This document shows, one piece after another, positions 4,420 through 59,658 of a DNA stretch of 64,000 nucleotides (position 1 is its first letter; each line of letters starts with the position of its first letter). The stretch covers positions 21,158,027 to 21,222,026 of the forward strand of contig NC_089730.1 of NCBI RefSeq assembly GCF_035083965.1. Direction: 5' to 3'. Position numbers and translations under genes: made by a program. The notes beneath the pieces were generated by a model. That model was not told the origin of the DNA. It did no database searches and worked only from the letters and a program-made list of their open reading frames with translations. The stretch comes from Branchiostoma lanceolatum. Its lineage: Eukaryota > Chordata > Leptocardii > Amphioxiformes > Branchiostomatidae.

Positions 4420-7400
4420 TTATGCCAGTTCTTCAGGTTGCTTAGCACTATCATCGTGCGGAGTTTCTTTTTCCTTGGCAGCTTCCCTCAGTGCATTTGC
4501 TTGCTCCTGGTAGTTGCTAGCTTTTTCATGATCTCCGACTTTGTTGCAAACTGTCTCCAGCTTGTCGAGCAGCTTCAGAATCGCGGGATGTGTTTGGTTC
4601 ATACCGTGGATGGTTTTTACCATGTTTAAAGCATCCTCGTAGAGCTGAATAGCTTTTGTGTGGTTTCCGAGACCTTCGTAAACTTCGGCCAGGTTACGGA
4701 GAGCTCCAGCAATGGAAGGGTGTGATGTGCCCTCCCCGTGTATGCCCCTGTTGATTTCAAGCGACCGCTCGCGGTATTGGAGGGCTTTCTGATATTCTCC
4801 TACCATGTGACATAATGACCCAAGTTTGCCTAGCAAACGAGGAATGTTTGGCTTTTCCTTGCTATTACTGAAAGCCTCTTCCTTGATCTTCAGCGCTTCT
4901 TCGTAGAAACTAATTGCCTTGAAGTTGTCCCCAGTTTTTTCCAAAATTTCTCCCGTACAGAAAAGAGACAAGGCGGTATGACGATGTGGGGTGGTTGGAC
5001 CGTAGAGCTCTCGATACATCTTTAATGTCTGCTTAAGGAACGAAAGAGCTTTCTCGTTATCGCCGACATAATGCCAAATGTGTCCCAGGTTATGAAGAAC
5101 AACTGCAATGTCGGGGTGGCGCGCTCCATCTCCATATATTGCTGTCAACATTTGCAGGGCTTGTTTGCAGCAGCTGGTCGCTTTCTTGTAATCTCCAAGG
5201 TGCGCTAATTCGCTTCCAAGGTTGTGGAGTAATTTGGCTGTTTGTGGATGTGGCGTGTCGCCCCCATAGAGGACGTTGTACATTTCTAAGGCCTCTTCGT
5301 GGCAGCGTAGCGCTTTGACATGATCCTTCAGGCCTCCACACAAACTATGACCGAGGTTAGAGAGTGATGTAGCGATATCAGGATGTGCTGTGTCTTGGCC
5401 ATAGATAGCTTTCATCATTCGTAAGCTATCTTGTTGATATTTGAGGGCTTTGTTGTAGTCACCTAGGCTACTCCAACACATTCCGAGGCCGGCAAGTGAG
5501 GAAGCTACACCTGGATGAGCTGCGTTTTCTCCATGGATAGTTTTTGATATACTCATTCCACTATCGAAGTAGCGTATGGCCTTCTCATAATCACCACGTC
5601 GAGCCCATTCTGCCCCAATGTTACGTAGAATATCGGCTAAAGACGTAGCTATCTCTGAATCTACTACATCATTAGCAAGTAACGCCTTGTACATCACCAT
5701 TGCCTTTTCATGGTACATAAGGGACTTCTCTGGGTTCACCACGCCCCAGGCTGATCCAAGGTTGCCATACGTGCGAGCAATTTCAACATTCTTTGTATCG
5801 TGCCCATATAACTGATGCAGTACCCTTAGCTCTTCTTCCAAGCTACTGATAGCCTGTCCCTGGTCACCGAGGTTGTAGTAATTCACGGCTTTCTGATTCA
5901 AAAGGGCAGCCTTTAAGGTCGATGCATTGAACCCCATCCAATCGCAAAGCCTTGCTACAGCGTCTTTCCCCTCCTCCATCTCTCTCAGTGCATCCTCTGC
6001 GTGGGATATCGCCGCCTTGAACTGCAAAAGCAATGAACGTATGCCTGACTTAACCATAGGAGAGGCTATGTAAAAAGCCCTTAGTCCTAGCAGGGCTAGA
6101 ATAAACTCACCAGTGAGGCCCATTGTGATTCCGGCGATGCATGCCTCAAGAGGAAGAGCTGTGTAGTAGTACCTGAACAGCATCTTCTGGTCCGGCACGT
6201 GGAACACTGATTTTATTAGTGTTTCGCCACCTTGGTCGTGCTGTGTCCGCATTGCTGTCAGGCCCGACAAGTTTTCCTTCTGGCCCTTGAGTTCCAGGTA
6301 CGTCCGAAGTCTCAGCTCACCTGAGATGCTGACCAGCACTTGAAGATGATGGGCGTTTTCTTTAGTGGCAACACCTGCCTCTTCCATTTCTGTAATGACG
6401 TCCCAGACGCTTGTTGCATACACGCCCTTAAGGAGGCCCAGATTCACAATTGCAACAGCTGGCCATCGATATATCTCTTTCTTGACGTCTAGCAGCTTCC
6501 CGATGACTTCCCGATCGAAGCCCTCTTCCACGGCGCGATTAAGAGAAGCTCGTGCAAACCGAACGCCAACTGTGGTCTTGCCCTCCTCGTTAAAGGTGTC
6601 TAATCCCTCAATCACTCTTGCCATGTAGTCGTCCACGAGTGTCTGATCTCCAGTCAGATAGGAGACGTACCTCAGTATGTCGGACAGGTGGTAACCATGA
6701 GCGAGGGCGATGTCATGTCGCTGAAACTCAGCCATGCCCGCAGGCGTTTGTATAAGGCTGACAGCGGGTTTCTTTTCCGTCTTTTCCCTTCCAAACGCAG
6801 TTTTGCTCGCCCATGGCATGGCCCCGTCAAACGCAAAGCCGCGAGGAGTGACAGAGTCGTAGAACCAGTTATCTGACGGATCCTCTGAATGGAAGTCGTT
6901 GAGGGACTTAATCCCTACTGGTGGCAGGATGGTCTCTCCAAGGTTGATGATTTTCAAGTACAGGTAGCAGGTGAGATTGAGGAAGTACTCTTTGTTCTCT
7001 GGAGTGTCTTTGTTCTCTTCTGTCAAGATGGCGAACTCCAGATCGGAATACGGAGTGACCAGTTCTGAAGCCTGTGATCCCAAACCTACCATAGCGTACT
7101 GACATGGCGGCGGTCCAATTGTCTCGATACACTCTTCAACAAGACCTTTGATGAAGTCCTTTCTTTGTTTTGATATGTCCTTAAACAAGTCCTTGACAGA
7201 TTCTGCTCGCTTCATCTCGACATCCTTAACTACAGGGTCGTCTTCGTCATATTGGTACGGGTTGTTGTCGTTGTGGATTGTTTCTAGACGCGCCTTGACT
7301 TCAGTTCTGTACTCTTCCAACCGATCCTTGTGTTCGATGTCGGTCTCGTAGGGTGATGGTTTGCAGTCGACTCCCACGGTGTGGTACAGAAACAGCCGCT

Positions 7401-9155
7401 CCGCTTCCTTGATGGAGTCGATCAGAAGATGCTTGTCGCCTTTCCTGACCAGTGCGGCGTTGTATAGCGCTGTGGCTTTAGCGAAGTCCTGTCCGTCTTT
7501 AGTCTGTGTGCCTCGTCTGACGTACACGGTCCCGAGCTTGCGCAGACACTCTTCTTCCTCTTGAAGCCGAGGTAATTCCTTGTCTACAACAAAATTAAGA
7601 TTGACATCTCACCTAGATTGACCCCTATGCAATGCAGGAATAGCAAGCGCTGCAAGTGTGTCGAGAAAAAAGGACCCAGTCCTATTCTTAAAAGGTAGTA
7701 TTCTCGTTATGATCTGCTGTTCCCCCAAAAAACTTTTATCTGATCTGCCTTGATGTACGTCTATCTAAGCAGCATTATTTCATCATTATTGTTCTCCAGT
7801 TAATTTGCAGCTTTGTTTGATATTTCGTTACTTCATCATGCCACTCTGCTTTGCTTATGTATGCCTGAAAACCGCTATGGTGGCGATGTGTGGTCCCTGG
7901 GTAAATAGAATAAAAATGAAATGAAATGTATTCTAAAAAACAATGATACGTTGGTATCTTCAGTGACTCACTGTGAACTTGTTTTAGCGCAGACGCGAAG
8001 AGTTCTTCTGCGGCGTCCAAATCACTATCCTGCAATGCCAAGTCTCCCGCAAGGTGGAGTTCCGCAAATGGTCTGCTGGCAGGGAATGTAGAACGAAAGT
8101 ATCAAATTTCTATCCTAGACCTTCGAAACTTATATTCTGTCCGCTATAAAACAATAAATGAAAATTATTTAGCCTCCTCAAACTAGGTTTCTGTTGCCTT
8201 GAATTCGTCATTTTGTAGCGCTTTGCACAAAGAAAAGTAATATGCATACCTGATTGCTTGGTTTTGCTTGTTCTTATTCCTTTTTGACTCTACTCTCTTG
8301 CGTAATTTCCTTGCGAACTTGATCCGGTGTTGAACAGTCATATTGCTGCTGGAGTCGCTCACATAACGCTCATTAGAGAACTTGTAGACTATAGACGCTT
8401 TGGACAGGTCGTTGCTATCCTCCTTTGCCCTTCCACGCTCAAGATACACGTCCCCTATGGATTTTAATGCTTCTCGTTCAACCATGATATCCTTGTGCAT
8501 AATGGCGTCAACCATTACTCCGGTGTATCCGTCGATGAGTACATCATCGTCGCAGCCCTGTCGCTTCTGCCGGTCCAGATCCTGAAATACCCTCGCTACT
8601 CTCGACATACAGGTGTCGCTATCTTCGCCCTTATCCAATAACCACAGACAATTGAGGCCACATTTGCATATTGGGGAGTGTTTAATGTACCTTAGTGTGT
8701 GACTTCCACGATGTTCAATTGTATCCCTCACAAAAGGTTCCTGGCAATGGAATAGTGCGTTGCGGTACAGGTGTAGTGCAGAGTAAAAGTTGCCTTCGTC
8801 ACCAGTTTTCTTCCCGATCTCGAGGTATAAGTCACCGAGACTCTTCAGTGCCTCCACCTGCAGCAGCCAGTCCTTGTTTTCTATCGCTTGCAAAAGTGCC
8901 CGCGAGTAACCCCTTTGTACAAAGTCCATGTCGTCGCCTTCGTAACGCTTTGTGTCCAAGTCAACAAGGGCCTCGGCAACCCTCAACATGTCTGCCACAG
9001 AAGACCTGTTCTTTTTACGTGGTTTCCCCAATACCTGTTTTGCCATATCCATTGCACCCACACACAGCTCCTTTACGGACTTGTTTGAAGTGGCTGCCAA
9101 TTCTGTCATGAAGTCCATTTCAAAATCTTCTCTTCCCCAGAGCAAGGTACAATAT
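4420..9155 (-). CDS. Nucleotidyltransferase-like domain plus TPR protein (5' end not found)
   Basis: Three minus-strand exons join in phase: 9155-8250 (acceptor CTCTTTCAG, donor CAG|GTATGC), 8072-7972 (donor ACA|GTGAGT) and 7583-4420 (acceptor TTGTTGTAG, stop TAA). Together they give about 1,390 codons. Domains in order: two TPR-like segments in the first exon (EALKSLGDLYLE, EALKSIGDVYLE); a nucleotidyltransferase-like block near residue 500 with GLGSQASELVTPYSDLEFAI, which has the G-S-x(n)-D-x-E signature of GlnD/DUF294-type NTases; a helical region with a possible hydrophobic segment (ITMGLTGEFILALLGLRAFY); and ten or so 42-44-residue TPRs of kinesin-light-chain/nephrocystin-3 type (HP-x-IA-x-SL-x-NLG, Y-x-KAL-x-YY). 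TPRs suggest a cytoplasmic scaffold. Catalysis is inferred from the motif only. An ATG at 9118 could be the start, but the exon opens with a splice acceptor, so an upstream exon is likely. Confidence 0.75.
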
Positions 9156-11341: not shown

Positions 11342-14300
11342 ATGGCGTCACTCACCACAGGAAGTACGGGACGAACGTTTAGGGGCTTTCCAGATAAGAC
11401 GATGTCATCGATTGGCAGAGAACTTTCTGTGCTAGTTCCTTTTTCTGACAACAATCCAGAGGAAGAGGATAGGTTGCGCCAATATCCTTTGGTTCAGGTT
11501 GGTTAAAATCTCGATATTTTTTATTTACTTCGGTTTTTGACAGAGAAGGACGACGTGGCACTGGGCTTTTTTTTATCACTGAAGTTTTTTTATCACTGTA
11601 GTTGTTTTAACAGTGCCACGTACAGATAACAACACTCATTTTTATAGACCTCGGCGAACTGAGGATATTTGCTACAGAAACTTCTAACACCTCCCCTAAT
11701 CAAAAGTACTGTAAATAATACTGAATACTTACTTCCCATCCCCTATACTGCATTCTCACGGATCTAGCCTCTACCAGGCCCCGCAGATGGCTGAAAAATA
11801 GTAGAAATTGGACAAATAGAGTGAATAGTATGCTAAGGGAGTCGGCTACGGAGAGAGGGTCCAATATGCCAAACTGTAACTTCCATAGCGGACTAACTTC
11901 TCTGGCACGTTATTCGTCTATTTGGCCAATTTCTACGATTTTTCCAGCTACCTATGGAGCCTGGTAGAGGCTATTCTAGATCTATCTATTGTAGATGTCG
12001 ATTTTATGATGTCTGTTTAATGAATGAAGACGTTCATTGTACATTCGTGCCCCGAGGGGCTAGATACGGGTCGTTTAACATAAACCTGACTAACATGAAA
12101 GTGACATATACAGTGAAATATATACAGTACATAGTTTCAACATACATGGTTGACGAAAGTGATAAGCTTAGCTAATCCAGTAGAGTCAACTTTTTTTATT
12201 AAACACCACTTCTGGGGCTGAAGGGCCTAACCGACTTTGACTTGACTTGACTTTACTGCTATAATATTGGACAAACTGTTTGCGGTGGCTTAACGTTCGC
12301 GGTGAAACGGTCGCCGCGAAAACCACGAACATAAAACCACCACGAATATTTCCGCACTTACAGTATTTGGGTGAAGCATGTGTAAGCTTAGTCCAACTGG
12401 CAAAGGAAGTTTTCGTCGCCACCCAACAAAACCTTCCTTTGCCAGTTGGATACGGTCTTATAGCGACCGAAAGATCTGCTCGGAGACTAGTGCAAACTGC
12501 GAGCAGAACTGACCAATCTCTGTTTGATAGGTAAAACAAGTTGTGTACAGCAACATCGATGACAACACTCTGCTTCTGGACTACGTAAAACAGGTTAAGA
12601 AGGTGAGTTATTAGCTTTTCGATACACATTCAGTAAAATGTCAGTACCAGTTCTAATTCCTAAAGTCCATTTCTAAAAGTCGATACTGCGGTGAGTTTTC
12701 TTTGCTCTGTGGGGAGTTTATTCCAAAGTTCAGGACCCGTGTACTTTAGAGTGCTCTTGAATGATTGTACATTTGTACATTTGCCTGTGGTGTATTACCC
12801 AACGTAAATCTCTTAAAAACAAGATTTCGATTATTAGTTCTTTCTCTAACTGAAATGTCCTGTACCATGTGACCTGGAAGGAAGTGTGGCGCTAAGACGG
12901 AGGTGAATACCGGATACCAACTTTCACCTGTAATTACGTCATATTTATGTTCAGGTCAGGTAACATAGGTTTCGGGTCATTTCAACTTAAAAAGGATCGA
13001 GACTGATTGAAAGCAAGGAGGTTAAGGTTAACCCCCTTGTTGAAAGGTAGATGGCAATATCTTTTCTGTACCGAAATAACGTATATGACCTTTAGTTTAC
13101 ATTTACTGATTAATAGATATTGCTAATCACCGTCACATTTTCGCTCGAACGGTTATCATTATTTTTCTTCTCCTGTCAAATCTTCAAATCGATTAATCTC
13201 GGTCGTCTCTACTGGGCCAAATGAGTTGAAATTTTGTATGCAGCCAGGTAGAAAGAGTGCATACCCACAGACGTTGCAAAAGTGCATAGGGGGACACAGG
13301 CTACATTTCGGACTGGAATGATTTTGCAATAGATTCCTAATTTTTAGCACTGGGGTGCTTTGGGGACAGTCATTTTTCTTTGTTTTGCATGGGGAGGGAA
13401 ATGGGCGAAATATGCTGTATTTGCTCTCGCAAATGTTGCTAGTTATAATTATCATCTTAACCCTCCATTCAATCAACACTTAGACCGTAAAGGACACCGG
13501 CATCAGCTCCATACTGACGTTGTCTGACATCTCCACGTTCGTCCACTCTGCCGTGGTCAGAGACTTTCCCTCCGTGTCCGGCCCGAGCGTAGAGGCGTGC
13601 TTCCTGGCCTTCCACAAAGCGTACACGAGAGAGCACCTGGAGCCAACTGCAGAGCCTATTCCTTACTGCGTGGTGGACCTGGATTCACCTACCGTGTCAA
13701 CAGATGCGAGGAAGGCCCTGGATACAGTAGGTGAGTCTAGAGAAGCATCGGGGTAAGTGGGGAACTTTATGGTTATAATACCGTTTGGTTTACATTAATC
13801 TTGCAATTACAACCTCTTTTAGTTGTAAGTCTTTAAGTATGGGAGGCTTCTTCTCTTTAGTTTTTTTGTATTAATCTATGTATTGCCATCTTGGTTTTTC
13901 AGCTTATAATTGTATTATTTATTGTTTATTGACTGATAGTGGTATGGTCTTGATTTTTGTGTGGCAGATAGCTTGTGATGTAAGGAAGAAGTGGTGTAGG
14001 TTTGGGCCTCCTAGCAGCTTATTCTGAAACTGCAGGGGCGATGTTGTCAAAATCTTCCAAGGTGAATAACTGAAGAAAGGAACGACGGATATTTAGTACG
14101 TAGGTAGATTAGACAGAGATGTACATAACGAAGTGCAAATTATGCAAATTGAAATCAAATTTTCTTGGCAGGATTTCCTGCCTGTGTGAAGCCCGCAACC
14201 GGATATGCGTCATTCGGAGTGAAGCGGGTGAACAGCTGTGCAGAAATGAGTGATGCGCTCGACAGTCTCCGGACAGTAAGAGACGAACACCCGAATTTCC

Positions 14301-17300
14301 TGACATCTCCTAGTGCTTCCTTCTTCAGGTAAGTAAAGAAAACAAATACGAAATCCACGCTCTCCTTTTTCAGCACTCGGTTACAGTGCTGAAAGTTGCT
14401 TCAACACTGGAAAACCAGTGCTAAACTTTCTTCAGCACTGGAAAACCAGTGCTGAGCTGAGCTGAGTTGCTAACTAAAAGATGCTGAAAAAAAATTGTTC
14501 TAAATCATTCAAAGGTTTGGGCTCCTGAAAGAAATAAAAACTTTGATTTACACAAGCACTTCCCCCCATATCTTTTTATCCCAACAGGAGTTTCTATGAG
14601 GAGTCTTTTGATAACGTTTAAGTACTTTCCCCCTATTGTTTTATCCCAACAGGAGTTTCTATGAGGAGTCTTTTGATAACGTTTAAGTACTTTCCTCCTA
14701 TTGTTTTATCCCAACAGGAGTTTCTATGAGGAGTCTTTTGATAACGTTTAAGTACTTTCCCCCTATTGTTTTATCCCAACAGGAGTTTCTATGAGGAGTC
14801 TTTTGATAACGTTTAAGTACTTTCCCCCTATTGTTTTATCCCAACAAGAGTTTCTATGAGGAGTCTTTTGATATGTTTAGCACTTCCCCCATATCTTTTA
14901 TCCCAACAGGAGTTTCTATGAGGAGTCTTTTGATAACGTTTAAGTACTTTCCCCCTATTGTTTTATCCCAACAGGAGTTTCTATGAGGAGTCTTTTGATA
15001 ACGTTTAAGTACTTTCCTCCTATTGGTTTATCCCAACAGTAGTTTCTATGAGGAGTCTTTTGATAACGTTTAAGTACTTTTCTCCTATTTCTATCCCAAC
15101 AGGAGTTTCTATGAGGAGTCTTTTGATAACGTTTAAGTACTTTTCTCCTATTGTTTTATCCCAACAGGAGTTACTATGAGGAGTCTTTTGATAACGTTTA
15201 AGTACTTTTCTCCTATTGTTTTATCCCAACAGGAGTTTCTATGAGGAGTCTTTTGATAACGTTTAAGTACTTTCCCCCTATTGTTTTATCCCAACAGGAG
15301 TTACTATGAGGAGTCTTTTAATAACGTTTAAGTACTTTCCTCCTATTGTTTTATCCCAACAGGAGTTTCTATGAGGAGTCTTTTGATAACGTTTAAGTAC
15401 TTTCCCCCTATTGTTTTATCCCAACAGGAGTTTCTATGAGGAGTCTTTTGATAACGTTTAAGTACTTTCCCCCTATTGTTTTATCCCAACAGGAGTTTCT
15501 ATGAGGAGTCTTTTGATAACGTTTAAGTACTTTCCCCCTATTGTTTTATCCCAACAGGAGTTTCTATGAGCAGTCTTTTGATAACGTTTAAGCACTTTCC
15601 CCCTATTGTTTTATCCCAACAAGAGTTTCTATGAGGAGTCTTTTGATATGTTTAAGCACTTCCCCCATATCTTTTATCCCAACAGGAGTTTCTATGAGGA
15701 GTCTTTTGATAACGTTTAAGTACTTTCCCCCTATTGTTTTATCCCAACAGGAGTTTCTATGAGGAGTCTTTTGATAACGTTTAAGTACTTTCCTCCTATT
15801 GGTTTATCCCAACAGGAGTTTCTATGAGGAGTCTTTTGATAACGTTTAAGTACTTTTCTCCTATTGTTTTATCCCAACAGGAGTTACTATGAGGAGTCTT
15901 TTGATAACGTTTAAGCACTTTCCCCCTATTGTTTTATCCCAACAGGAGTTTCTATGAGGAGTCTTTTGATATGTTTAAGCACTTCCCCCATATCTTTTAT
16001 CCCAACAGGAGTTTCTATGAGGAGTCTTTTGATAACGTTTAAGTACTTTCCCCCTATTGTTTTATCCCAACAGGAGTTTCTATGAGGAGTCTTTTGATAA
16101 CGTTCAAGTACTTTCCTCCTATTGGTTTATCCCAACAGTAGTTTCTATGAGGAGTCTTTTGATAACGTTTAAGTACTTTTCTCCTATTTCTATCCCAACT
16201 GGAGTTTCTATGAGGAGTCTTTTGATAACGTTTAAGTACTTTTCTCCTATTGTTTTATCCCAACAGGAGTTACTATGAGGAGTCTTTTGATAACGTTTAA
16301 GTACTTTTCTCCTATTGTTTTATCCCAACAGGAGTTTCTATGAGGAGTCTTTTGATAACGTTTAAGTACTTTCCCCCTATTGTTTTATCCCAACAGGAGT
16401 TACTATGAGGAGTCTTTTAATAACGTTTAAGTACTTTCCTCCTATTGTTTTATCCCAACAGGAGTTTCTATGAGGAGTCTTTTGATAACGTTTAAGTACT
16501 TTCCCCCTATTGTTTTATCCCAACAGGAGTTTCTATGAGGAGTCTTTTGATAACGTTTAAGTACTTTCCCCCTATTGTTTTATCCCAACAGGAGTTACTA
16601 TGAGGAGTATCTCGATGTAACGAAGTACTCTCTGGCTCTTCGTGACGTGGTGGTGGTCGAGCCTTATATGGAGGCCGAGGCCATGTACGCTGTGGACGGC
16701 TGCGTCATCAACGGAACCATCGTGCACTGGGCGGTAAGTTCAAAGTTCATTAAGCCCCCCCCCCTCTCACTGGGCCGTCGTCGCTGCGTCCTAAGCTGGA
16801 TTTGTGTTATCCTTGACTTTAAAATGGCAATATCATTCGAAACGTGTAATTATGACCGAAAAGACAACAAAACCCACAAAGCTTAACAAGTTCTTTATCA
16901 TTTCTTTATTTAGTTCAGGGGAGAAACCACAGTTACAATATATGCCAGGCATGAATGTAGTTTTATGGGGAAGTGAAGGAAAAGAAAGTGTCATTATCTC
17001 AGTAATAGAAAGATCGGACCACAAAAACCTGCCCTCAACTGCTAACCTATTATGTCAACTGTCATCAGACGCGACAGATTGACAGATGACAGATTAGCCA
17101 AAGTGGCTCTGTGGTCGTCACTCCACCACCAGGGAAGGTTGTGTAAAGTGCCTTTCCCAAGGGCACAGCGTCGGGGCATGGTGAGTATCGAACCCGGGAC
17201 CAATTGTTCTGATCCCAACCCTCTACCCGTTGCGCTACGCCGACGCCACTTAAGTAATATTTGTATTGTTATCTCCATGAAAAATGGAGAAATAGTTTTG

Positions 17301-20065
17301 TAAAGCCGAAATTCAAGGTCGATTTTGGGCCCCCTGGTATGTGACCTTGGTGCTGCAGCAGAACTTCTGTTTTTGTATCTTTTGACCTGGACATACTATG
17401 GTCTTGATTTTTGGGTGGCAGATAGCTTGTAGTATAAAAAAGTGTTGTAGGTTTGGGCCCCCTACCAGCTTGCTCTGGAACTGCAGTAGCATCATTGTGA
17501 AAATATTCTAAGGAGAATAACTAAACAAATGAAAGACGGTTTCCATAATATCTAGTATGCAGATAGCTTAGACAGAGATGTACACAGTGACGTGCAAATT
17601 ATGCTAATTGGGACTTAGTTTTATTTTGTGTATTGTGGAAAAAACGTAGATCGCCGACACACTCCGTTTCGATGAGGAAGACGCCAGGTTCGCTTCCATG
17701 ATCCTGCCGACCGCCGCTGATGACGGTCTACAGGGCGAGATATGGAGGTTGTATGACGCCGTGCTGACGAGGATGATCCAGTTTGGCTTCGACAACTCTT
17801 TTGCCATGATAGAGGTATTCAAGATGAAAGACGGAGAGGTAAATATAAGTTACTAAACGACTTTCTGCCATAACAACACTCTTACGAGTAGAGTAGAGTA
17901 GAGTAGAGTAGAGTAGAGTAGAGTAGAGTAGCGAAGCGTAGAGTAGAGTAGAGTAGAGTAGAGTAGAGTAGAGTAGAGTAGAGTAGAGTAGAGTAGAGTA
18001 GAGTAGTGCAGTGTATTCACTTATTTATTCAAAATGATTACCATTTCTTTTCGTCTGACTTAATTCACTTTACTTAGATTTATGTTATGATGTTATCTAT
18101 CGTAGTTAAGGGGAAACCCAGAATAAACATTGAGTGTTTTTTGCTTTTCCCGCATGATTTTTAAAAAAATTGATGTTCGTGTACTGTTCATCTATCCTTT
18201 AAGAGACTCTTGAAGTAACGTAAATTAACAAAACCAGCGGACACGGACCATGAACCAGCTTTCGCCCTACTATATGTTGTATGTTGTAACAATTGTATAT
18301 TGTTGTACTATAAATATGTAATGATATATGTTGATAGAGTTATTAGGACTCAAATGGCTGCGTATCTCTGTTATATTGTATCTGACCCTTACCTCTCCCA
18401 TCATGACCTCAATGAAAAGCAACCTGTGTGCCGATTTGAGCTTATCATGAATAAACAAAGGTTCAAACAAATAAATAGTCTACATGCGAATTAACGATAA
18501 ACATGTTTACTCCAGATCAGGTTAGTTGAGGTGAATGCGCGTGCCAACAGGCTTCATCATGCTGTCTACTCAGCCTGCTTAGAGCCCGGATTGCAGGACC
18601 ACGCCAGTATGTCTGCAGCATGCGGCATCGGGTTCAGCCAACCTGCCCCGACGGGAAAACACGGCATCGTGTACCCAGTCTTCTTCAAGAAACCTGAGAA
18701 GCCGGGAAACCTGATGGACTTTGACGTGGTGGGTAAAGACCCCGTCTCACTGGACCCGCGGCACGCTGGCGGCGGCGCTGCGTCCTAAAGCCCCCGTCTC
18801 ACTGGACCCGCGGCACGCTGGCGGCGTCGCTGCGTCCTAAAGCCCCCTCTCACTGGACCCGCGGCACGCTGGCGGCGTCGCTGCGTCCTAAAGCCCCCCT
18901 CTCACTGGACCCGCGGCACGCTGGCGGCGTCGCTGCGTCTTAAAGCCCCCGTCTCACTGGACCCGCAGCACGCTGGCGGCGTCGCTGCGTCCTAAAGCCC
19001 CCTCTCACTGGACCCGCGGCACGCTGGCGGCGTCGCTGCGTCCTAAAGCCCCCTCTTAATGGACCCGCGGCACGCTGGCGGCGTCGCTGCGTCCTAAGCT
19101 GGATTTTTGTGTTACCCTTGACTTTGTACCATTCAAAACGCACAAGTATGACCAAAAAGACGTAAAAAGGTTTAAAAACATTCGTTTTTTGTCGATGAAA
19201 TTCGTTGAGTGCTTGTCAATTTGATCGGCCGCAGCGACACCGCCAGCGTGCCGTGGGTCCAGTGAGAAGGGGCTTTAAACGTAGCCTCTACCAGGCTCCG
19301 CCGGATGGCTGGAAAAATAGTAGAAATTGGCCGTAATAGAGTGAATAGTGTGCCAAGGGAGTTAGCTACGGAGGGAGTACATTCTGCCATCGACGGTCCG
19401 TCGATGGCAGAATGTACTCCCTCCGTAGCTAACTCCCTTGGCACACTATTCACTCTATTACGGCCAATTTCTACTATTTTTCCAGCCATCCGGCGGAGCC
19501 TGGTAGAGGCTACTTTGAACGTACTCTCCAAGCAGATGAGCAGATGAGTGGGTCCGGCAGATGAGTGGGTCCGGCTGCTTTCTGATGTGTTTTAGGCACT
19601 TCTGTCGGGCTTTCTACTTTGTCATGAGGGTTGGAGAGACAAAAAAAACATAGCAAAGTAGAAATCCCAACAAAACGCTTAGAAACACGTCAAAAAACAG
19701 CGGGTGTACGTTTGTGTGTGTATCAATTGTTACATGACAAAAACTTTTCTTTTGCTAAAACTGCTTTTGATTTTTAGAAATCGCATTCAGGCTTATAACA
19801 GAATCTGATACAAAGGTTTATTTAATATCTGCATTCAACTGTTTCGTTATTCCATTTTTAGATCAAAAAGCTCCAAAACGATTCCGACGTGGAATTTCTG
19901 CTGCTAGCTGGTCCCGATGACGACATGTCCGACCTCCTCAGTAGTACCCACTTCTGCGCAGTGACGGTGTGCGCAGACTCCAGGCAAGCGATGATGAACA
20001 GACTGGTGGAGGTTCTGCGGCTGACTGTGAAGAAACCCGAGAAGCTAACATACCCCATGTCTTAG
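11342..20065 (+). CDS. ATP-grasp ligase family protein, seven exons, complete (435 aa)
   Basis: Exons 11342-11497, 13484-13730, 14172-14328, 16592-16733, 17650-17838, 18516-18728 and 19862-20065 join with matching phases (0,1,2,0,0,0) into 435 codons plus TAG. The start is CAAATGG. ATP-grasp features in order: an N-terminal substrate-side segment (GISSILTLSDI); the ATP-binding lysine loop in exon 3 (ACVKPATGYASFGVKRV); the hinge-like VVVVEPYMEAEAM and INGTIVHWAIADTLRF across exons 4-5; and the metal-binding FAMIEVFKMKDGEIRLVEVN with E and N ligands across exons 5-6 (ending VEVNARANR). These enzymes form an acyl-phosphate and ligate it to an amine or thiol. Carnosine-synthase-like ligases are the nearest animal relatives I can think of, but the substrate cannot be read from sequence. 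The protein is probably cytosolic, as no signal peptide is seen. Exon-boundary tandem repeats sit in intron 3 and at the stop codon. Donor choice after exon 6 (GTG|GTGGGT) was set by phase. Confidence 0.8.
11761..11985. mobile_element. Foldback element, degenerate copy of the 19281-19513 family
   Basis: The ends read AGCCTCTACCAGGC ... GCCTGGTAGAGGCT. The interior has the same blocks (ATAGTAGAAATTGG, AGAGTGAATAGT) as the perfect palindrome at 19281, but the arms have diverged. It lies in intron 1 of the ATP-grasp gene. Confidence 0.8.
12360..12530. mobile_element. Multi-hairpin MITE-like element
   Basis: It contains CCAACTGGCAAAGGAAG with its inverse CTTCCTTTGCCAGTTGG, and a second hairpin TCTGCTCG/CGAGCAGA. 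CCAGTTGGATACGGTCTT is shared with the element at 24715-24870, so they are one family. It lies in ATP-grasp intron 1. Boundaries are approximate. Confidence 0.65.
13915..14150. repeat. Intron-2 repeat abutting exon 3, partner 17395-17620
   Basis: About 220 bp match intron 4 (17395-17620) in the same order: TATGGTCTTGATTTTTG, GGTGGCAGATAGCTTG-like, GTAGGTTTGGGCC, TTAGACAGAGATGTACA and GTGCAAATTATG. Both copies end 20-45 bp before a 3' splice site of this gene. Confidence 0.8.
14586..16591 (+). repeat. 65-bp minisatellite made of a 3' splice site plus exon start (~31 copies)
   Basis: The unit starts at AGGAG (14586, 14651, 14716, 14781 ...) with a 65-bp period and occasional 62-63-bp variants. 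There are 31 intronic copies before the real exon acceptor at 16590-16591. Each unit has a pyrimidine tract, TTTTATCCCAACAG, and then GAGTTTCTATGAGGAGT, which mirrors the true exon 4 start GAGTTACTATGAGGAGT. Most units meet an in-frame TAA about 11 codons after the acceptor. Units 14908-15426 and 16007-16525 share variants in register at a 1,099-bp offset, showing a higher-order duplication. Confidence 0.95.
16755..16875. mobile_element. MITE fragment related to 18745-19276
   Basis: CTCTCACTGG, GTCGCTGCGTCCTAAGCTGG and the following TTGTGTTA-CCTTGACTTT block match 18990-19175. It begins about 20 bp after the exon 4 donor (16734). Confidence 0.7.
17095..17248 (-). mobile_element. tRNA-derived SINE
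   Basis: On the minus strand a tRNA-like head starts GTCGGCGTAGCGCAACGGGT (A-box region), contains a B box GGTTCGATACT, and closes with CCCCGAC, which can pair with the 5' GTCGG. It is followed by the tail GTGCCCTTGGGAAAGGCACT. The same tail motif occurs in the element at 29905-30030. It is an insertion in ATP-grasp intron 4, not a functional tRNA gene. Confidence 0.75.
17395..17620. repeat. Intron-4 repeat abutting exon 5, partner 13915-14150
   Basis: This is the diverged second copy of the intron-2 repeat. It ends shortly before the exon 5 acceptor (17649). Confidence 0.8.
17886..18006. repeat. GAGTA pentanucleotide microsatellite
   Basis: About 24 units of GAGTA with one interruption (GCGAAGCGTA) near 17931. 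It starts 47 bp after the exon 5 donor. Confidence 0.97.
18745..19276. mobile_element. MITE with a 51-52-bp tandem array and an inverted terminal copy
   Basis: Seven tandem copies begin at TCTCACTGGACCCGC (18745, 18797, 18848, 18900, 18952, 19003, 19054). An inverted copy lies at about 19224-19276 (CAGCGTGCCGTGGGTCCAGT), so the whole is bounded by inverted repeats. The left end is about 16 bp from the exon 6 donor at 18729. Confidence 0.85.
19281..19513. mobile_element. Perfect 233-bp palindrome (foldback element)
   Basis: Two 116-bp arms are exact reverse complements around a single central base at 19397. The terminus is GTAGCCTCTACCAGGCT. As a result, identical translations appear on both strands. 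It sits in ATP-grasp intron 6. The related degenerate copy at 11761 implies a mobile family and a very recent origin or homogenisation of this copy. Confidence 0.95.
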
Positions 20066-20194
20066 ACACACAATTGCAGCTGACTGTGAAGAAACCCGAG
20101 AAGCTAACGTACCCCATGTATTAGACACACAATTGCATCTGACTGTGAAGAAACCCGAGAAGCTAACGTACCCCATGTATTAGACACACAATTC
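20021..20194 (+). repeat. 59-bp tandem triplication of C-terminal codons, stop and 3' UTR
   Basis: CTGACTGTGAAGAAACCCGA begins at 20021, 20080 and 20139. The first unit encodes the last residues (LTVKKPEKLTYPMS) and the TAG of the ATP-grasp gene. Units 2 and 3 lie in the 3' UTR and still end in the equivalent TAG. Confidence 0.95.
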
Positions 20195-22839: not shown

Positions 22840-25800
22840 CTACGTGTGCACGTTGCCGTCCCTCAAACCTCTCGCCTCCTCCTCGTCCTCCTCCCCTGAC
22901 ACCTTCATGTTCTCCTTCAGTCTCCTGTTGGACCGGGTCGACGCCCGCGCGTCCGTTGACCTCAGCGGTCTCCCGCGCTTGTCGACCTGGCGCTGCCTGT
23001 AGGCGTGCCCGACACACGCCGCTGCAATTAGCAGCAGAACCGCTAGGACCAGCGCCACCACGATTCCCACCACCACGTTGTCTGATCCACCTTTCAGTCA
23101 GAAGATATATTTTGGAATCATGAGTGAAGTTTCTAAACGATGTAAGAGAATGGGATTTGCGCAACACCACCTCTAGTTGTAATCTCCAAACAGATGTTTG
23201 GGTGTGTAAATCGTTTTCAAAGCTGTCCATTTCTGTGTGAAACTGTCCCCTTAAATAGTTTTACATAGAAAAGAGACATATTGAAAAACGTAACGATTTA
23301 CACTCCCCAAACATCTGCTTGGAGATTACAACGGTTGTGGATTACCACGGTTGTACGAGAGCGAAAATTCGAAACACAAAGAGTGAATCTACATATAAAT
23401 ACCTTACAGGGAAGAACGAAATAGATATAAAATGGTCACGAATGCGGGAGGCAAAGATTTGCTATGATATTTACCATCTTATAAGGCTCCATAATGGTTT
23501 TGCTTTTCTCCTTTAATTTGCATAGTTCTTTTGGCATTGACTGACCTGGCAGAGGTTGGCAGTCTCTCTCGTCGGAGTTGTCCGTGCTGCCGCAGTTGGG
23601 AAACCCGTTACACACCAGGGCATTGTGGATACAGCGACCAGCATGCTCCGCGCACCGGAAACCGCCACAGGTCCCGTTAGCTGGGGGAGTGAATACATCA
23701 ACATATGACGTCACCTATCATAACTCCGCCGGGTGCTCCAGTGCTAACATAAAAAAAGTCAACCTTAAGAAGATACCAGGAATCTCAAAGCATGCACATT
23801 TCAGATTTTCAAGTGTTTAAGCCCTCGATAGACAGTATAGAGGTGCGAGAATACCAGGCGGAAATATGGTGATACATTTTGTACGACAATGTTCTCAAGG
23901 CACAGATACTTTTCATGAATAAAATCGACTCGCGTACACCAGCGCTTATTTGTTCTTTGAGAAAGGCATGGAAAATCTTCATTATTTCTTGAAATCTCTT
24001 AAAATTCTGAGAAATAAAAATATAGCTGGGGAAGGAATTTAAACGTCAGCGCTCATAATTCCACGGGTACTAGGCGCTAGTGGTGTGGATCTAAACCCGA
24101 GTTTAGGTTTAGGTTCGGACTCGAGTCCAGAGGTTTAGGTTCAGGTCCGGACTTGAAAGTCCGGACCTGAACAATAATTTTGGAATATTTTGTTGTGTTA
24201 CATGTAAAATTGCATATTGGCAGATATTTAACATGTAATTTGAAAACTATATATACGGAATTATATCCAGTCAGTAATCAACACAAAAGTTCAGTTATAA
24301 TAAACACAAAAACAGCAATGTTTTAATATTTTCTAGTGCAAATTTCACGATTTAAGGAAGGTTTAAGATGGTTTAAAACAAAAAGGAGTGTATGAGTGAG
24401 AGAATTTTTCAAGTCCGGACTTGTTTCCAGACGTTTAGGTTTTTTTGGACTTGAACCTAAACGTTTTACAAGTCCGGAACCGGTCCGGCCGAACCGATCC
24501 GCACCACAAGTACTAGCATACTCAAAGGCTGTCTTAAAAAAATTGGAATGGGAACTTGAAAAGCATCAGTAATCCCCGAGGTGTGCTCATTTCAGATATC
24601 CAGGGGCACATTTCAAACTTGAGGTATCCACTTGTAATCCGAGGCATTTTGAAACGTCGTTATTAATTTGTTGTTGTTGATGCGCGGTCTTAGGATATCC
24701 GTACCGTAGGACCTATTGAATAGTCTCCAAGCAGACCTACGGGTTGGCAAAGACCGTATCCAACAGGCAGAAGGAGTTTTCATAGCCAACCCAACCTTAG
24801 ATTGCACTATAAGCTCCTTCTTCCAGTTGGATACGGTCTTTGCAATCTATTGGGTCTGGTTGGAGACTACTATTGAAGGCGGTGACACATTTTGTACAGA
24901 CTATGATTCTTTCGTGAATAAAATCAACGTGTGTACATCAGAGTTCACCTGTTCTTTGAGAAACAAAATCGAACATTTCCTTATTTCTTGAAACATCAGA
25001 GAAACTTCCGCAATTGTAAATCACAGATGAGAATTTTTTTCTACATTTTACAACCATACTTTTTACAAGTACACTTCACTTTTTGATACGGACATCTGTT
25101 TTAAACGCAGTATCTGCTCTGATACGCAGGTACAATAAACCTACCTGGAATGTGAGTAAACTGAGTCCACGACGCCTGGAACCTTCCTCGGCCCGTCTTG
25201 GACGTGAAGCTGAGAAATTCAATAAGAATGTTCATTTCTTAGATAGCTAATTTCTCAGCAGACTTATCTTTTCCCTTTGTTTTGTAATTCTTAATGACTA
25301 AAGCATGAGCAATACCTACGCTTAAGGTTGTGATTTATTTGGAAAACGCTACAGACCCAAACGAAAGAAAAAAACCCATAAACTTGGGAAAGAAAAATAT
25401 TGTTATCTGATTTCGATGTATCTGACTGTTTGCCTTTTCAAGATAACTTAATATTTTTCGTTATCTCAGATCATCTCATAATTGAAAAAAAAAGATATGA
25501 CAAATCAAGAATATAGTGCAAAATGACCATATTTCAAGTAGAATTATTCTTGAAAGGAAAAAAGAAAAGAAATATACGATTAACTAAAAATGATACTCAA
25601 AATTCCCCATATTTGGAGCGGACCTACCTGACGATAAGAGCGGTAGCGTCGGGGCCGGTCTCCATGACGTCAGGCGAGTCGGACGTTTTTACTGGCTCAG
25701 CAAACACGAGCGCGCCAGTGTCGTCATGCTTCACCTGGTACGTCTCCAGTTCAGCATCTGGAGCGACCAACAGAAAATTAGAGTCATTGCTGGACAGAGA

Positions 25801-28713
25801 CGGGGGGCGTTATAGACTTCCCTGCACAGATCATCTTCCTCTCCACATTCCAGCTAGCTCAGTTACATATCAACTCCATGGATTACCTGGTACATTTGCA
25901 GCTCCGCATCTGGGACGGACTAGAGGGAAACAACAACTTTTATAATCAACAACCAACAGGACATTAGAGCCATCGCTGGAAAGTACAGAGACGAGGGGCG
26001 TTATAGGCTTCCCGGAACAGATCATATGCCTCTCCACATTCCAGCTAGCTCAATTATATTGATCAATCAACTCTTTGGACTGATTCTACTCATGGTATGA
26101 TTTTTTACTTGTCGTTATAATCTCAGTGATACATTTCTCTTTTTCTATCAACCTCCACCATTCTTCCCTTTCCAGTATTGCTTTTTGTTATTTTCCATTA
26201 TCTCTCTTCTATCGGTCTATTTCTAACCCCCCCCCCCCCATATTTTTTTCTCATCTTATTCTATACTTGATACCTTCGTATGCGATGTCCGTTTCTAAGA
26301 ACTGCAGGGAGACGTCATTGTTCGGGGAGGAGAGTTCCAGGACCCACTCGCACTGGAAAACGTCGGCGGGGACAGGGCCGGGGTAGCCCGGGGACTCCAG
26401 TACGCCGCCCGCTACCCTGTAGGTCCCGCCGCAATCTGGGGGAATATTACAGTGTGTTAGCGTAAGGGCCGATCACTGTAACGGGCAACACTTGAACACG
26501 TCGGCGGGGGCAGGGCCGGGGTAGCCCGGGGACTCCAGCACGCCGCCCGCTACCCGGTAGGTTCCTCCGCAATCCGGGGGAATATCACAGTGTGTTAGCG
26601 AAAGACCTGCTCCATGGCCGATCCCAGGACCGGGCCACACTGGAACGCTTCGGCGGGGACAGGACCAGGTTAGCCCGGCACTCCAGAACGCCGCCCGCCA
26701 CCCTGAAGGTACCTCCGCAATCTGGGGAAAAGCATGATACATATATTGTTACTGTGATGTGGACTGCTACAGGGACCAGCAAGGGCCGGGACACACTGGA
26801 AGACTGCAGCGGGGACAGGACCGGGGTAGCCCGGGGACTCCAACACGACGCCCGCTACCCTGTAGGTTCCTCCACAGTCTGGGGGAAAAGAATGAATTGG
26901 TACATGTTACAGCGCCGTGGTTACAGGGCCAGGACCCACTCACACTGGAACATGTCAGCGGGTAATGGGCCGGGGTAGCCCGGGGACTCTACCAGACCTC
27001 CCGGTACCCTGTAGATCCCACCATAATCTACGACCAATTAATTAATGTTCAGGCTGTTCTAAGGCCAACCGTACCGTTATGGACAGGAACGCGCTAGAAC
27101 ACGTCAGAGGGCAAAGGGCTAGGGTATCCGGGGGACTCTTGGACACCTCACGCTATACGTTCCTCAGAACCTACAGACAATTATAGTGAGTTAGAGAGTA
27201 AGAACAGTTCTAGGGCCAGCTCCTAGACCGGGTTGCAGCAGAACACTATACTGGTTATGAATCTTGGTTCTAATTGTGTCAACAAAACTCCTGGAAAGTA
27301 CCATCTAGATTTCATAAGCTGAAAGAAACCTTAAACAGATGCTCACCGTTGGTGATGAAGTTGAAGTCTACCTGGAACCCTCCGTAGTTTTTGGTTTCGT
27401 CCGTGACGAAGGTGAGCTGGGCTCTTGGTCGTGACGTCACCAGAGCGGGCGGGACGCAGTCGCCACAGTAACGGCCCAGCGTGCGCACTGGTTGGTCAGC
27501 GTCATTCAGCTCCTCTACCTCCAGGTAGTCATGGTGACAGGTGTAGAAACTACAAGTTGAAAACAAAATGTTACTTGTACATGAGAAGCCATTCGCGTGA
27601 CGCCAATGGTTCAAAAAGCTAAAGTTCTAACACTTGCCAAGATCATTTCAGATCGGTACAAATATATATCGTCCCAGCAAACTTCCAATTTCCTATCAAG
27701 GTACGTAGACTTTTGAACTTGATCTTGAAAATTCAACTTGATCGTTGCACCCTATCAAAGCTCCGCCCCTGTAGCGTTGCGAAAATGACACAAAAATTCC
27801 TCCGTCGGTCAATAGCGACTATGGTAAAACCTTTTAACAGCCATACAACAATGGCTATGGCTAAGCAAAGCCTTGCCACACCAAACACCTATCATTTGTA
27901 GAATGTCTAGGTATTTTCCACGTGCATATCTATACTATATTAACTGCTATATACCCCAATAGAGTCTCCAAAAAATTCTGTTCAACCACCTACCACGGTC
28001 TGTTACTCTCGTGCGGTGCGCCCTCTATCTGCAAGGCGTTGAACTTCAGCCGTAACCTCTCCCCAGGCTTCCCCTGAAGGACGTAAGTGCAGAACTGGCT
28101 TTCTGGGTAGTCCGCCGGGAAGCCCGGCGAGGCTATCACGCCGTCCGGACTGTCCTCGCTGCTGTAAACATACCTGCACGGCTCTTGGCTCTCTGTGGAA
28201 GAAGGGGAGGGCGGAGGTTTATATGGATACTTGTGTTTCTTAATATTTTGTGTGTGTTCAAAACGGTTGATATGCTCGTTTTGTGTCCACTGAACCATTT
28301 GTATAACACAGCCCCTTTTCGAGATGAATAAAATCTAGAGGCGATATTTATCTTGCATTCATCCCTCCGCCAGAAATTCGGTTCAATTCGTTGATAAAGT
28401 TTTAACGCATGCATGTACATGACTGTATAGTTTGAGAGATAACTTAAGTCCGGAACCGATACTAATGAACAAATTTCAGTGAGACACAGTGCATGAATGT
28501 TTGAGACGTGCCCCTGTGGTGTAAATAATCACCGATATCGTCGGACCGTGCATGAATGATGGTGTAAAGCCGCATGCGTGCCGGATCAATGGTGCCGGGG
28601 CGCGCCGTAATACGAGCGGAGGAGCAGACAGGCAATCAGCAGATTCAATAGCAGCCCTTCACAGCAAACTGCTCAGGCGGTCGAATCTTAGTACTAACAG
28701 TTTTTGACTGGTT

Positions 28714-49612: not shown

Positions 49613-50057
49613 CGTATCGAAGATGTTACAGTTTTGTAAATGTAAAAGTGACATGGACCCTTGTTGAAGTAAAGAACAGAATTCAGTGTCATTCAGTTGC
49701 TGTAGGTCTACTGTATTGGAAATAGATTACAACAGAGTACTTCTTTGGCTGGTTTACAGAGTAGAATTAACTTTAATAATCAGTCTCTCAATCAGTTCCT
49801 CTTCAGGGCGTTTGAGTGGAAGAGATCAGTCAAATTAAGGCGAACCATTGAACCACAGTTCTGCTTCTGGTGCCCTCTGGCAGTCAGGGACGGAACATGC
49901 CCGACTCGTTACGTGAAGTCATCACCAAAAGGTTCAAATGTCAGCTGCCCAAAACCGGTTTGTTCGGAGAGGGCGTTGACTTACCAGGCTGGGTCTGTCT
50001 ATCCCTCCGAGCTTTATCTGATTTAGATCCGTAAAGACGAGCCTAAAAACATTCAAT

Positions 50058-52910
50058 ATGGACAAGAACACGGCCATTTTCGTCCTCTTGGCCTGCCTTG
50101 TCGCTTCAGAGTGTGTCCTTGGAACGCTACAGCTGTCAGCGACCGTTCCAGAGAATGCTCATGTGTGGGAAACTGTTACCAGCGTTCGGTCGGCCATAGG
50201 GGAAGTTGGAGAGGAAGTAAGATGTGAAATTGTCGCCGGAGACAATAACGGACGCTTCCGCGTGACCGACTGCGTGATCCAAGTGGCACGTCCGTTGGAT
50301 TACGGCGTCGACGCGAGCTATAACCTCACGGTAAACGTCACAAGGTTTTCCGGAAACCCCGAGCAGCTGTATGTTGATGTAAACGTCGAAGACGTGGAGG
50401 GATACCCACCTGTTTACAACGACACGTGCGAAATGCCGATTCGGAATGGCCTAGGAAAGTCAGGTGATATGTTGTTCGATGTAAAATGGATAGGCGACGC
50501 CATGACAATGGATATTGGAGAGGTCTTTGCCTCAAGTTACTTTTTTTACGATAGTAATACCATGCGGGTTTCGAGGGCCAAGCTGCTTAACACATACATT
50601 AATAACAGTGATTGCCTTGTGCACCTGGCATGGAGGCCCTGGCATGATGATGACGACACATTCGTTAGGTCGGTGCGAAAGACCACCCAACAAAGATGCT
50701 TGAACTGTTCTAGTTCAGAAGATAGGACATCCGTCCTAGAAATTGAATTATTGCACAGTTATAATGGCTTTACTCCCAGCTCGTCTGGTAGGTGTTATTC
50801 TGGGCCTATTCCTGAAACAGATAGACATGTTATATTGGCGGGTTCAATGACGGTTTCTTCCAGAAAAAAGAATCGTGTCACGTGCAAGATACCAGAAGAC
50901 TTGTCTGTCTCTGTAAATATTTTGGGGGTGGATCGTGAAGTAATCCCTATATTTGTAGCATTGGATTTCCGGCCGGTCGGATGTCCACCGAACAAGTACG
51001 GCGTGTTGTGTGATCAGAACTGCACCTGTGAGAACGGCGCCCGCTGCCATGGGCTGAACGGGGCCTGCAAGTGTCAGCCTGGATGGCAGGGTGTCGTGTG
51101 CGACATACCTCACAGTACCGTGGCCATCATCGCGACCCCTAGCGATTCGAGACGGATTTACATCACAGGCACATTAACACTGCTCTGCAAGGTTTTCAAT
51201 CTGGTTGCTGATCGAATGGTGTGGACATTCCCTAATAAAACGGAGAAGTGGTTGCAGGGCGCTCAAGAAGACCATGTAAGGCTCCACAACATACAGTCCG
51301 AACACAACGGTACCTACACCTGCACTGTGTTAACAAAAGGCGGGGCTGTCATTAACGCAAGTTATGAGCTCCAGGCAGTCGCCTGTCCTCCCGGAAAAAC
51401 GGGTGAATCGTGCGAAGAAGAGTGCGTCTGTAGGCACGGTGGCAGCTGTGACCGGTGGGCCGGCTGTGTCTGTTCACCGGGATGGGCAGGAACCACGTGT
51501 CAGACCTCCTGCCCAGCTGGCACCTACGGACAGGGTTGCAGCAGCCAGTGTCACTGTCAGTATGACGCCACCTGCTCCCCTACCGACGGCCGGTGTAACT
51601 GCACGGACGGCTGGTTTGGTCGTAAGTGCAGCAGGCCCTGTCCTACAGGTCTATACGGCTGGAAATGTCGGGACGCCTGTGCCTGTAAAAACAACGCCAC
51701 GTGTCAACACTTGGACGGAACCTGCGACTGCGTTCCACCATGGACTGGCAAGTGGTGTGACGTCATCAAAACGCCTACGGGTGACGTCGTTGAAACGGAC
51801 ACGTACACATTCCCGTTTTCGCTCCAGATTGCCATACCGCTGATACTAACGCTGCTAGTCGCTGCACTAGTATTGTTCACACTCTACAAGCGGATCAAGG
51901 CTGAACATGCGGCACATCAAGAACCTATGGAGGAGGCCACAGCTCTACTGGAGCTGAGAAGTATGGAGGAAGACCTGGCGCAGAGTTTGCAGCCCGGCTG
52001 GCTCAGCCGATGGGAGAGGAACGCCAACGATCTGACTTTGGACGAACTGGTCGGGGTGGGCGCTTTTGCAAAGGTCAGGAAAGGGAAGCTTTGCATGGCT
52101 GGAGCCAACGTCGCCGTAGCGGTCAAGTCCGTCCGCGGAGAGGACAGGCGGTGCTACCGAGCCTTCTGTCGGGAAGTCGCCGCGCTAGTATCCGTGCACG
52201 AAAACCACGGGGAACAAAATGGAGGACATCCCAACATCGTCAAGCTCTTAGGGGTCGTCACGACGTCCACACGGAAGTGTATACTCTTGGAATTTGCTGC
52301 CAAAGGCGAACTTGTGGTCCTTTTAAAGCAACAGTCTCGGCAGAACCGTCCTCTTGGCAGGTTTCTTCGCTATGCCGTCCACATATCCCGTGCCCTGAAG
52401 GAGCTCCGACGTCTGCGTATCGCTCACTGTGACGTAGCCGCCCGAAACGTCCTCATCAGCGGCAACGACGTTGCCAAACTTGCTGACTTCGGTCTGGCCC
52501 ACGACGTCTACACCGCGACTACCTACGTGTCTCCAGCCAATAACGACGCGGACGAACTCCTGCCGCTGAAGTGGATGGCTCTGGAGTCGCTGGAGTCTCG
52601 CGAGTTCACGTGCGAGAGCGACACGTGGTCGTTCGGCGTGCTGCTGTGGGAGATCGCGGCCTTCGGGAAGGAGCCCAGCTACCAGCGCCAGCGCCAACTG
52701 AGTTGTCCCAAGTTGGTGGGGATCCTGAGGCAGGGGGTCCGTCTGGACAGGCCGCCCGGATGTCCGGGAATTCTGTATGACGTCATGGAGACGTGTTGGC
52801 TGGAGGAGCCGTCGGCAAGGCCGGAACCGGCAGAACTGGAGCAGAAGCTGACAGAATATTGCCAGGAAATTGACCCATTTCAAGTTATCGAGAATGAAAC
52901 TCTGGTTTGA
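50058..52910 (+). CDS. Receptor tyrosine kinase 1, intronless (cadherin-like/EGF/Ig ectodomain, 950 aa)
   Basis: A single open frame from an ATG in ATTCAATATGGAC. Signal peptide residues 1-21 (FVLLACLVASECVLG). Residues ~22-125 read as one cadherin-like repeat (VPENAHV, RPLDYGVDASYNLTVNV, VEDVEGYPPV). ~126-308 is an unrecognised cysteine-containing domain. EGF-like ~309-351. Ig-like ~351-440 (LLCKVF, VWTF, NGTYTC). Three EGF/laminin-EGF-like repeats ~441-569. TM ~584-606 (IAIPLILTLLVAALVLFTLY). Tyrosine kinase ~659-930: GVGAFAKV loop (third Gly replaced by Ala), VAVK lysine ~690, HCDVAARN catalytic loop ~790 (Cys for the usual Arg), DFG ~810, DVYTATTY activation loop, WMALES. The C-terminus NETLV fits a class I PDZ ligand. 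Ig+EGF recalls Tie receptors and cadherin+kinase recalls Cad96Ca, so orthology is unclear. I recall lineage-specific RTK families in amphioxus. The gene is probably catalytically competent; the ligand is unknown. Confidence 0.88.
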   Translation: MDKNTAIFVLLACLVASECVLGTLQLSATVPENAHVWETVTSVRSAIGEVGEEVRCEIVAGDNNGRFRVTDCVIQVARPLDYGVDASYNLTVNVTRFSGNPEQLYVDVNVEDVEGYPPVYNDTCEMPIRNGLGKSGDMLFDVKWIGDAMTMDIGEVFASSYFFYDSNTMRVSRAKLLNTYINNSDCLVHLAWRPWHDDDDTFVRSVRKTTQQRCLNCSSSEDRTSVLEIELLHSYNGFTPSSSGRCYSGPIPETDRHVILAGSMTVSSRKKNRVTCKIPEDLSVSVNILGVDREVIPIFVALDFRPVGCPPNKYGVLCDQNCTCENGARCHGLNGACKCQPGWQGVVCDIPHSTVAIIATPSDSRRIYITGTLTLLCKVFNLVADRMVWTFPNKTEKWLQGAQEDHVRLHNIQSEHNGTYTCTVLTKGGAVINASYELQAVACPPGKTGESCEEECVCRHGGSCDRWAGCVCSPGWAGTTCQTSCPAGTYGQGCSSQCHCQYDATCSPTDGRCNCTDGWFGRKCSRPCPTGLYGWKCRDACACKNNATCQHLDGTCDCVPPWTGKWCDVIKTPTGDVVETDTYTFPFSLQIAIPLILTLLVAALVLFTLYKRIKAEHAAHQEPMEEATALLELRSMEEDLAQSLQPGWLSRWERNANDLTLDELVGVGAFAKVRKGKLCMAGANVAVAVKSVRGEDRRCYRAFCREVAALVSVHENHGEQNGGHPNIVKLLGVVTTSTRKCILLEFAAKGELVVLLKQQSRQNRPLGRFLRYAVHISRALKELRRLRIAHCDVAARNVLISGNDVAKLADFGLAHDVYTATTYVSPANNDADELLPLKWMALESLESREFTCESDTWSFGVLLWEIAAFGKEPSYQRQRQLSCPKLVGILRQGVRLDRPPGCPGILYDVMETCWLEEPSARPEPAELEQKLTEYCQEIDPFQVIENETLV

Positions 52911-54743: not shown

Positions 54744-54879
54744 TCACAAAAAGGTTCAAATGTCAGCTGCCCAAAACCGGTTTGTTCGGGGAGGCCGTTG
54801 ACTTACCAGGCTTGGTCTGTCTATGCCTCCGGGCTTTATCTACTGTAGATCTGTTGAGACGAGCCTGAAAACATTCAAT

Positions 54880-59240: not shown

Positions 59241-59515
59241 AACAAACTAAAAAAAGACGTGAGGCAATGTAGTAAGGTGGTGTCCTAATTTCGCTCGTTA
59301 ACTGAAAGGCTTGTAAATCAAACATTGTGTCAGAAGTCCTTGTTTGAGTCCCGTCATAAAAGCATGTTTTGGTAAAGTTTGCTGCCGTTATGTGATAATC
59401 AGCCTCCACAGGTCCCTCCATAGGACGTGTGAAAGGGAGAAATCGGTCACAATAAAGCGAACCATGGACGAGTGCCCGCTGGCAGTCAGGTACGGAACAT
59501 GTCCGACTCGTTACG

Positions 59516-59523
59516 TGACGTCA
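59516..59523. promoter_or_regulatory. CRE-type palindrome TGACGTCA in the RTK3 leader
   Basis: In ACGTGACGTCATCAC, 136 bp before the RTK3 ATG; position conserved with RTK2. Confidence 0.4.
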
Positions 59524-59614
59524 TCACCAAAAGGTTCAAATGTCATCTGCCCCAAACCGGTTTGTTCGGGGAGGCCGTTGACTTACCTGTCTGGGCATGA
59601 CTATCCTTCCCAGC

Positions 59615-59622
59615 TATATATA
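59615..59622 (+). promoter_or_regulatory. TATA-like element of RTK3
   Basis: TATATATA begins 44 bp before the ATG. The equivalent positions in RTK1 and RTK2 read GCTTTATCT, so the TATA-like run is specific to RTK3. Confidence 0.35.
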
Positions 59623-59658
59623 TGTAGATCCGTAAGGACGAGCATAAAAACATTCAAA

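Follow-up and report, generated by a model that had tools for sequence, protein, structure and literature searches.

The window considered here is a stretch of 64,000 nucleotides (nt) of Branchiostoma lanceolatum DNA (contig NC_089730.1, positions 21,158,027 to 21,222,026 of the forward strand), which contains an ATP-grasp gene with six predicted exons that together give an open frame of 383 residues (Table 1). The frame matches two Pfam models above the cut-off, namely ATP-grasp_4 (E 9.3e-8, residues 83-254, exon 4 included) and the C-terminus of D-Ala-D-Ala ligase (E 3e-6). The matches in the PDB are weak (best E 0.0011) and are to ATP-grasp enzymes; the 17 NCBIfam models listed for this frame all stay below their cut-offs. 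The exon numbers are taken from a preliminary description of the same DNA; the first exon of the gene was not located. Introns 2, 3, and 4 are 441, 2263, and 916 nt long, respectively, and intron 3 consists mostly of a tandem array whose unit spans the boundary between the intron and exon 4, so that the predicted acceptor of exon 4 is preceded by a long series of copies of itself.

Tandem Repeats Finder (TRF) reports the array at 14554-16608 with a period of 65 bp, 31.8 copies, and 94% matches; the score is 3597, where 50 suffices for an array to be reported. Splitting the sequence at TCCCAAC yields 32 acceptor copies, the real one at 16591/16592 and 31 upstream copies, referred to below as decoys. 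This agrees with the preliminary description, in which a 65-bp unit was said to be repeated about 31 times up to the true exon. The units are 65 nt long, some of them 62-63 nt, and each is composed of about 48 nt of intron end followed by 17 nt of exon start. The last module comprises the predicted working acceptor and the start of exon 4, into which it continues at 16592. The array had been described as starting at 14586, which is slightly too far to the right: aligning the intron part of copy 1 backwards as an acceptor module places the start at about 14541. This left-edge match is modest without the terminal bases, since 8 windows out of 5585 then score as high. The first decoy acceptor lies 259 nt from the start of the intron.

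The exon part of about 17 bases per unit that had been claimed earlier is present in 28 of the 31 decoys, with T (23 decoys) or A (5 decoys) at position 6, where the exon itself has A; the other three decoys differ elsewhere. The exon thus begins with a 17-nt stretch carrying a TAC variant that is common to 5 of the 31 units, which would be consistent with sequence exchange reaching into the coding exon. A further resemblance between unit and exon beyond these 17 nt (TAACG...AAGTACT) could suggest that this part, too, comes from the exon. At the left edge of the array, however, copy 1 has this stretch as intron, and we have therefore kept the 17-nt limit and taken the likeness as due to chance. 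Of 8797 windows, 24 score as high when anchored and 75 when local, as do 60 of 5000 shuffles.

The decoys are very similar to the real acceptor. The AG dinucleotide is kept in 28 of them, being replaced by AA in units 5 and 17 and by TG in unit 26. The 23-mer of the real site (20 intron and 3 exon bases) is identical in 20 of the 31 decoys, and its 33-mer is found in 11 of the 28 that bear an AG. The preliminary description, according to which every unit offers a nearly identical acceptor, is therefore right for the majority and overstated for the three units lacking the AG. The real site has the sequence TGATAAC at a distance of 39 nt from the exon, which resembles a branch point (6/7 match to the consensus), and a pyrimidine tract with 77% C/T from -25 to -4, the highest value among the six acceptors of the gene. 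Since 20 of the decoys tie with it over 23 bases, the local acceptor sequence cannot explain how one site would be chosen over the others. The predicted local RNA accessibility also fails to separate them, the value being 0.32 for the real site and 0.297 for the decoys (standard deviation 0.046), with 9 of the 31 decoys lying higher.

In the predicted transcript, entry into a decoy from exon 3, i.e., in phase 2, leads to a premature stop in all 31 cases, whereas the real acceptor gives 249 residues on to the stop of the gene. The decoys had been said to yield about 10 residues and a TAA, and thus a poison outcome. The poison outcome applies to every unit, and 11 residues followed by TAA are indeed obtained in 27 of the 31, while the other four run for 32, 32, 46, and 68 residues. 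Use of a decoy would extend exon 4 from 142 nt to between 207 and 2146 nt. The donor-like sites in the array are weak: one reaches 6/9 of the donor consensus, tying with the weakest donor of the gene, and the rest have at most 5/9, compared to 6-9 of 9 for the five real donors. The units are for this reason unlikely to be cassette exons, and the decoys, if used at all, would be alternative acceptors that lengthen exon 4. It is very improbable that the units are micro-exons or the alternative exons of a diversity cassette, an idea to which the AG in 28 units and the amino-acid changes (R/S, F/Y) encoded by the exon bases of some units lend themselves, as the donors are weak and all 31 units run into a stop from exon 3, the only frame read.

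The arrangement of the units gives some insight into the history of the array. There are 14 unit types, ordered in blocks, and 12 of the 31 units are identical. A block of 757 bp occurs twice, with 749 of 757 aligned bases identical, and the array must therefore also have grown by several units at once, in a step that is young compared with the divergence of the units. The per-site count of changes covers 30 decoys and excludes the real site and the copy at the left edge. The two AG positions together changed 3 times, the mean for a single position being 1.03; of the 65 unit positions, 46 are invariant, and 52 of 64 neighboring site pairs vary as little as the AG pair or less. There is thus no sign of extra conservation of the decoy AGs among these 30 units, which are related by descent and hence not independent.

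An array of this kind is a large addition to a published class. Tandem repeats that span exon-intron boundaries in amphioxus have been termed mirages, and the preliminary description, which mentioned minisatellites of this sort at an amphioxus Adh locus, finds its counterpart in print (PMC3087553, PMC3902484). Minisatellite-like duplications of intron-exon boundaries are reported for BflGb6 and BflGb9, and structures of the same sort for Adh3, to which the name mirage was given (PMC3087553); a mirage with imperfect repeats is described in PGBD5, and Adh and TnC are cited as further cases (PMC3902484). The relation of minisatellites to splicing in C. elegans is the subject of another report (PMC4039745). 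In the present array, the unit spans an exon-intron boundary, as predicted from the open frame and the Pfam match; many of the copies, although not all, carry the splice signals of that boundary (AG in 28 of 31 decoys); and the block repeat and the 12 identical units show concerted evolution within the cluster. The 65-bp unit falls within the 10-72 bp quoted for Adh3. The extra copies number 31 here, as compared to BflGb6, for which two haplotypes with 6 and 3 units are reported (PMC3087553). A length that is unstable between haplotypes or in the soma is also characteristic of the class, the present sequence covering one haplotype. ATP-grasp and CUB hosts did not turn up among the published mirages in these sources, no literature search having been aimed at those genes. 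Mirages are known from a few amphioxus genes, and the present array is a large and clean further example.

We consider it quite probable that the array is a mirage-type minisatellite that has grown neutrally and is tolerated because its units are complete acceptor modules. The initial tandem duplication would by chance have included the 3' splice site of intron 3, with later expansion by single-unit and block steps. The 65-bp unit would represent a whole acceptor module, comprising the branch-point-like TGATAAC, the pyrimidine tract, the CAG, and 17 nt of exon. Changes in length would be tolerated because any in-register gain or loss always leaves one full acceptor adjoining exon 4. In such a scenario the array would probably be a harmless passenger and not a switch. 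We infer both this neutrality and the use of the last acceptor from the sequence features given above.

Some rule must favor the last copy, since published amphioxus mirages reportedly splice normally (PMC3087553, PMC3902484); in particular, RT-PCR (reverse-transcription PCR) data on Adh3 and the globins suggest that splicing is undisturbed (PMC3087553). Our guess is that the last copy would be chosen through exon definition from the downstream donor, considering that the real exon has 142 nt and that the donors within the units are weak. The support that PMC9225289 offers for this rule is mixed. According to that report, human splice sites that are closest across the exon are favored under exon definition, and long introns are those over 250 nt, intron definition taking over at 200-250 nt. 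Introns 2, 3, and 4 of the ATP-grasp gene all fall in this long class.

Several observations weigh against the proposal. In the same human data, the upstream 3' site is preferred overall when the sites are at least 20 nt apart, a preference that is strong with short introns and significantly reduced, although not plainly reversed, with long ones. Such a preference would make it harder for the last copy to prevail, as would the fact that the intron ending at decoy 1 would have 259 nt, close to the 200-250 nt range of intron definition. The use of decoys in the ATP-grasp gene is accordingly a live possibility. In addition, no close homologue that could have been used to test the conservation of the exon start was found, apart from one weak partial match in plasmids, and no relatives are present among 59 pattern matches in genome contigs, the pattern reaching close relatives only. 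Exact matches of the unit pattern are absent from the viral contigs searched.

If decoys are used, the array could function as an expression rheostat, in which a fraction of the transcripts is spliced to a decoy, acquires a premature stop, and is lost to degradation, with the length of the array setting the output of the ATP-grasp gene. We regard this as rather unlikely. It is in line with the premature stop after each of the 31 decoys, the AG kept in 28 of them, the overall upstream preference of human 3' sites (PMC9225289), and the short intron to decoy 1. A related case is the variable number tandem repeat (VNTR) in intron 18 of human ABCA7, where, as in the present array, the unit includes the splice site of the adjacent exon. 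There the unit has 25 bp and contains a donor, whereas here it has 65 bp and contains an acceptor. The effects of length on splicing and expression were measured for ABCA7, and longer arrays are reported to give lower expression and more skipping of exon 19 (PMC5954066). However, it was this skipping on which length acted, the retention of one repeat unit being about 2% and independent of length (PMC5954066). The normal splicing reported for the published mirages, the lack of extra conservation of the AG, and the similar repeats at other boundaries nearby also argue against a rheostat. The same low chance attaches to the array acting as a natural titration of 3' splice-site choice, with 28 AG-bearing competitors that differ mainly in position and with length setting the amount of functional ATP-grasp mRNA. 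The array provides a test case in which models of splice-site choice can be separated: besides exon definition, equal competition would give the correct product in about 1 in 29 transcripts, and a first-come rule would give none.

It is improbable, and more so than a rheostat, that the array is in reality shorter and that its copy number has been inflated by misassembly. The near identity of the units and of the two 757-bp blocks is what such an error could produce, and for one globin mirage the draft genome is reported to contain an aberrant assembly (PMC3087553). On the other hand, the 14 distinct unit types occur in an ordered arrangement, and the two copies of the block differ from each other.

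Table 1. Positions in the window of the ATP-grasp gene, the array in its intron 3, and other boundary duplications.
Feature	Position	Strand	Details	Basis
Joined exons of the ATP-grasp gene	13484-13730, 14172-14328, 16592-16733, 17650-17838, 18516-18728, 19862-20065	+	predicted	
Intron 3	14329..16591	+	mostly array	
Tandem array	14541..16608	+	32 acceptor modules	TRF, unit listing, left-edge alignment
Repeated block	14753..15509, again 15851-16608	+		749/757 aligned bases identical
Predicted working acceptor inside the last repeat	16548..16591	+		TGATAAC, pyrimidine tract, CAG
Exon 4	16592..16733	+	142 nt, entered in phase 2; donor GCG/GTAAGT (GCG before the cut)	open frame, Pfam
Stop-region repeat of the ATP-grasp gene	20016..20192	+	59 bp x 3; last 15 codons, stop, start of the 3' flank	
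Candidate two-copy acceptor duplication in a neighboring CUB gene	25794..26059	-		exon status judged by eye
Older acceptor mirage in a CUB gene	26351..27132	-	predicted exon start 26435 and 5 diverged upstream copies	

Boundary duplications are not special to exon 4, since others occur in the same window. The CUB gene on the opposite strand has an older acceptor mirage, in which the copies are spaced by 138-157 bp, the farthest being weak (66% over 53 nt). An AG is found at the matching place in four of the five upstream copies and has been lost in one, and the peptide of the exon that starts at 26435 gives a CUB match with E 9.4e-5. The two copies of the candidate duplication next to it (25794-25868 and 25985-26059) are offset by 191 bp and are 89% alike over 75 nt; the 61-residue frame at this place has no match in Pfam. 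At the end of the ATP-grasp gene, the second and third copies of a 59-bp repeat lie after the TAG at 20063-20065 and still read LTVKKPEKLTYPMY followed by a stop. Within about 12.6 kb there are thus two acceptor mirages in neighboring genes, one more candidate, and a repeat of a stop region. This suggests that duplications at boundaries may be frequent in this genome and may continually alter the structure of genes. Of ten clusters of local duplication, the one at 29263 included, four lie at gene boundaries, where 0.54-0.81 would be expected if there are 40-60 boundaries (P 0.001-0.005). This enrichment is indicative at best, as the number of boundaries was estimated by eye, the clusters were chosen post hoc, short-period rows were dropped, and one of the four, at 25794-26059, is only a candidate.

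We have also considered a 52-bp x 7 array at 18734-19097, which begins 5 nt after the donor of exon 6, as a donor mirage. This assignment was rejected because related sequence is dispersed and inverted: judged by eye, it occurs near 16752, just after the donor of exon 4, and in inverted orientation near 19215-19270. The 52-bp array looks like a mobile element that has landed beside donors twice. Introns 2 and 4 also share a stretch (13943-14166 and 17397-17625, 78-87% alike), which by eye we take for a dispersed repeat.

Elsewhere in the window, three long open frames in tandem (50022-52910, 54802-57735, and 59317-62463) encode tyrosine kinases (PF07714, E ~1e-60 each). Their immunoglobulin and cadherin matches are sub-threshold, as are most of the EGF-like matches, and each frame apparently consists of one exon. 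Finally, a single frame of 1062 residues at 4420-7608 on the reverse strand contains tetratricopeptide repeats (TPR_12, E 4.1e-63), and the nephrocystin-3 TPR model is barely over its cut-off there.
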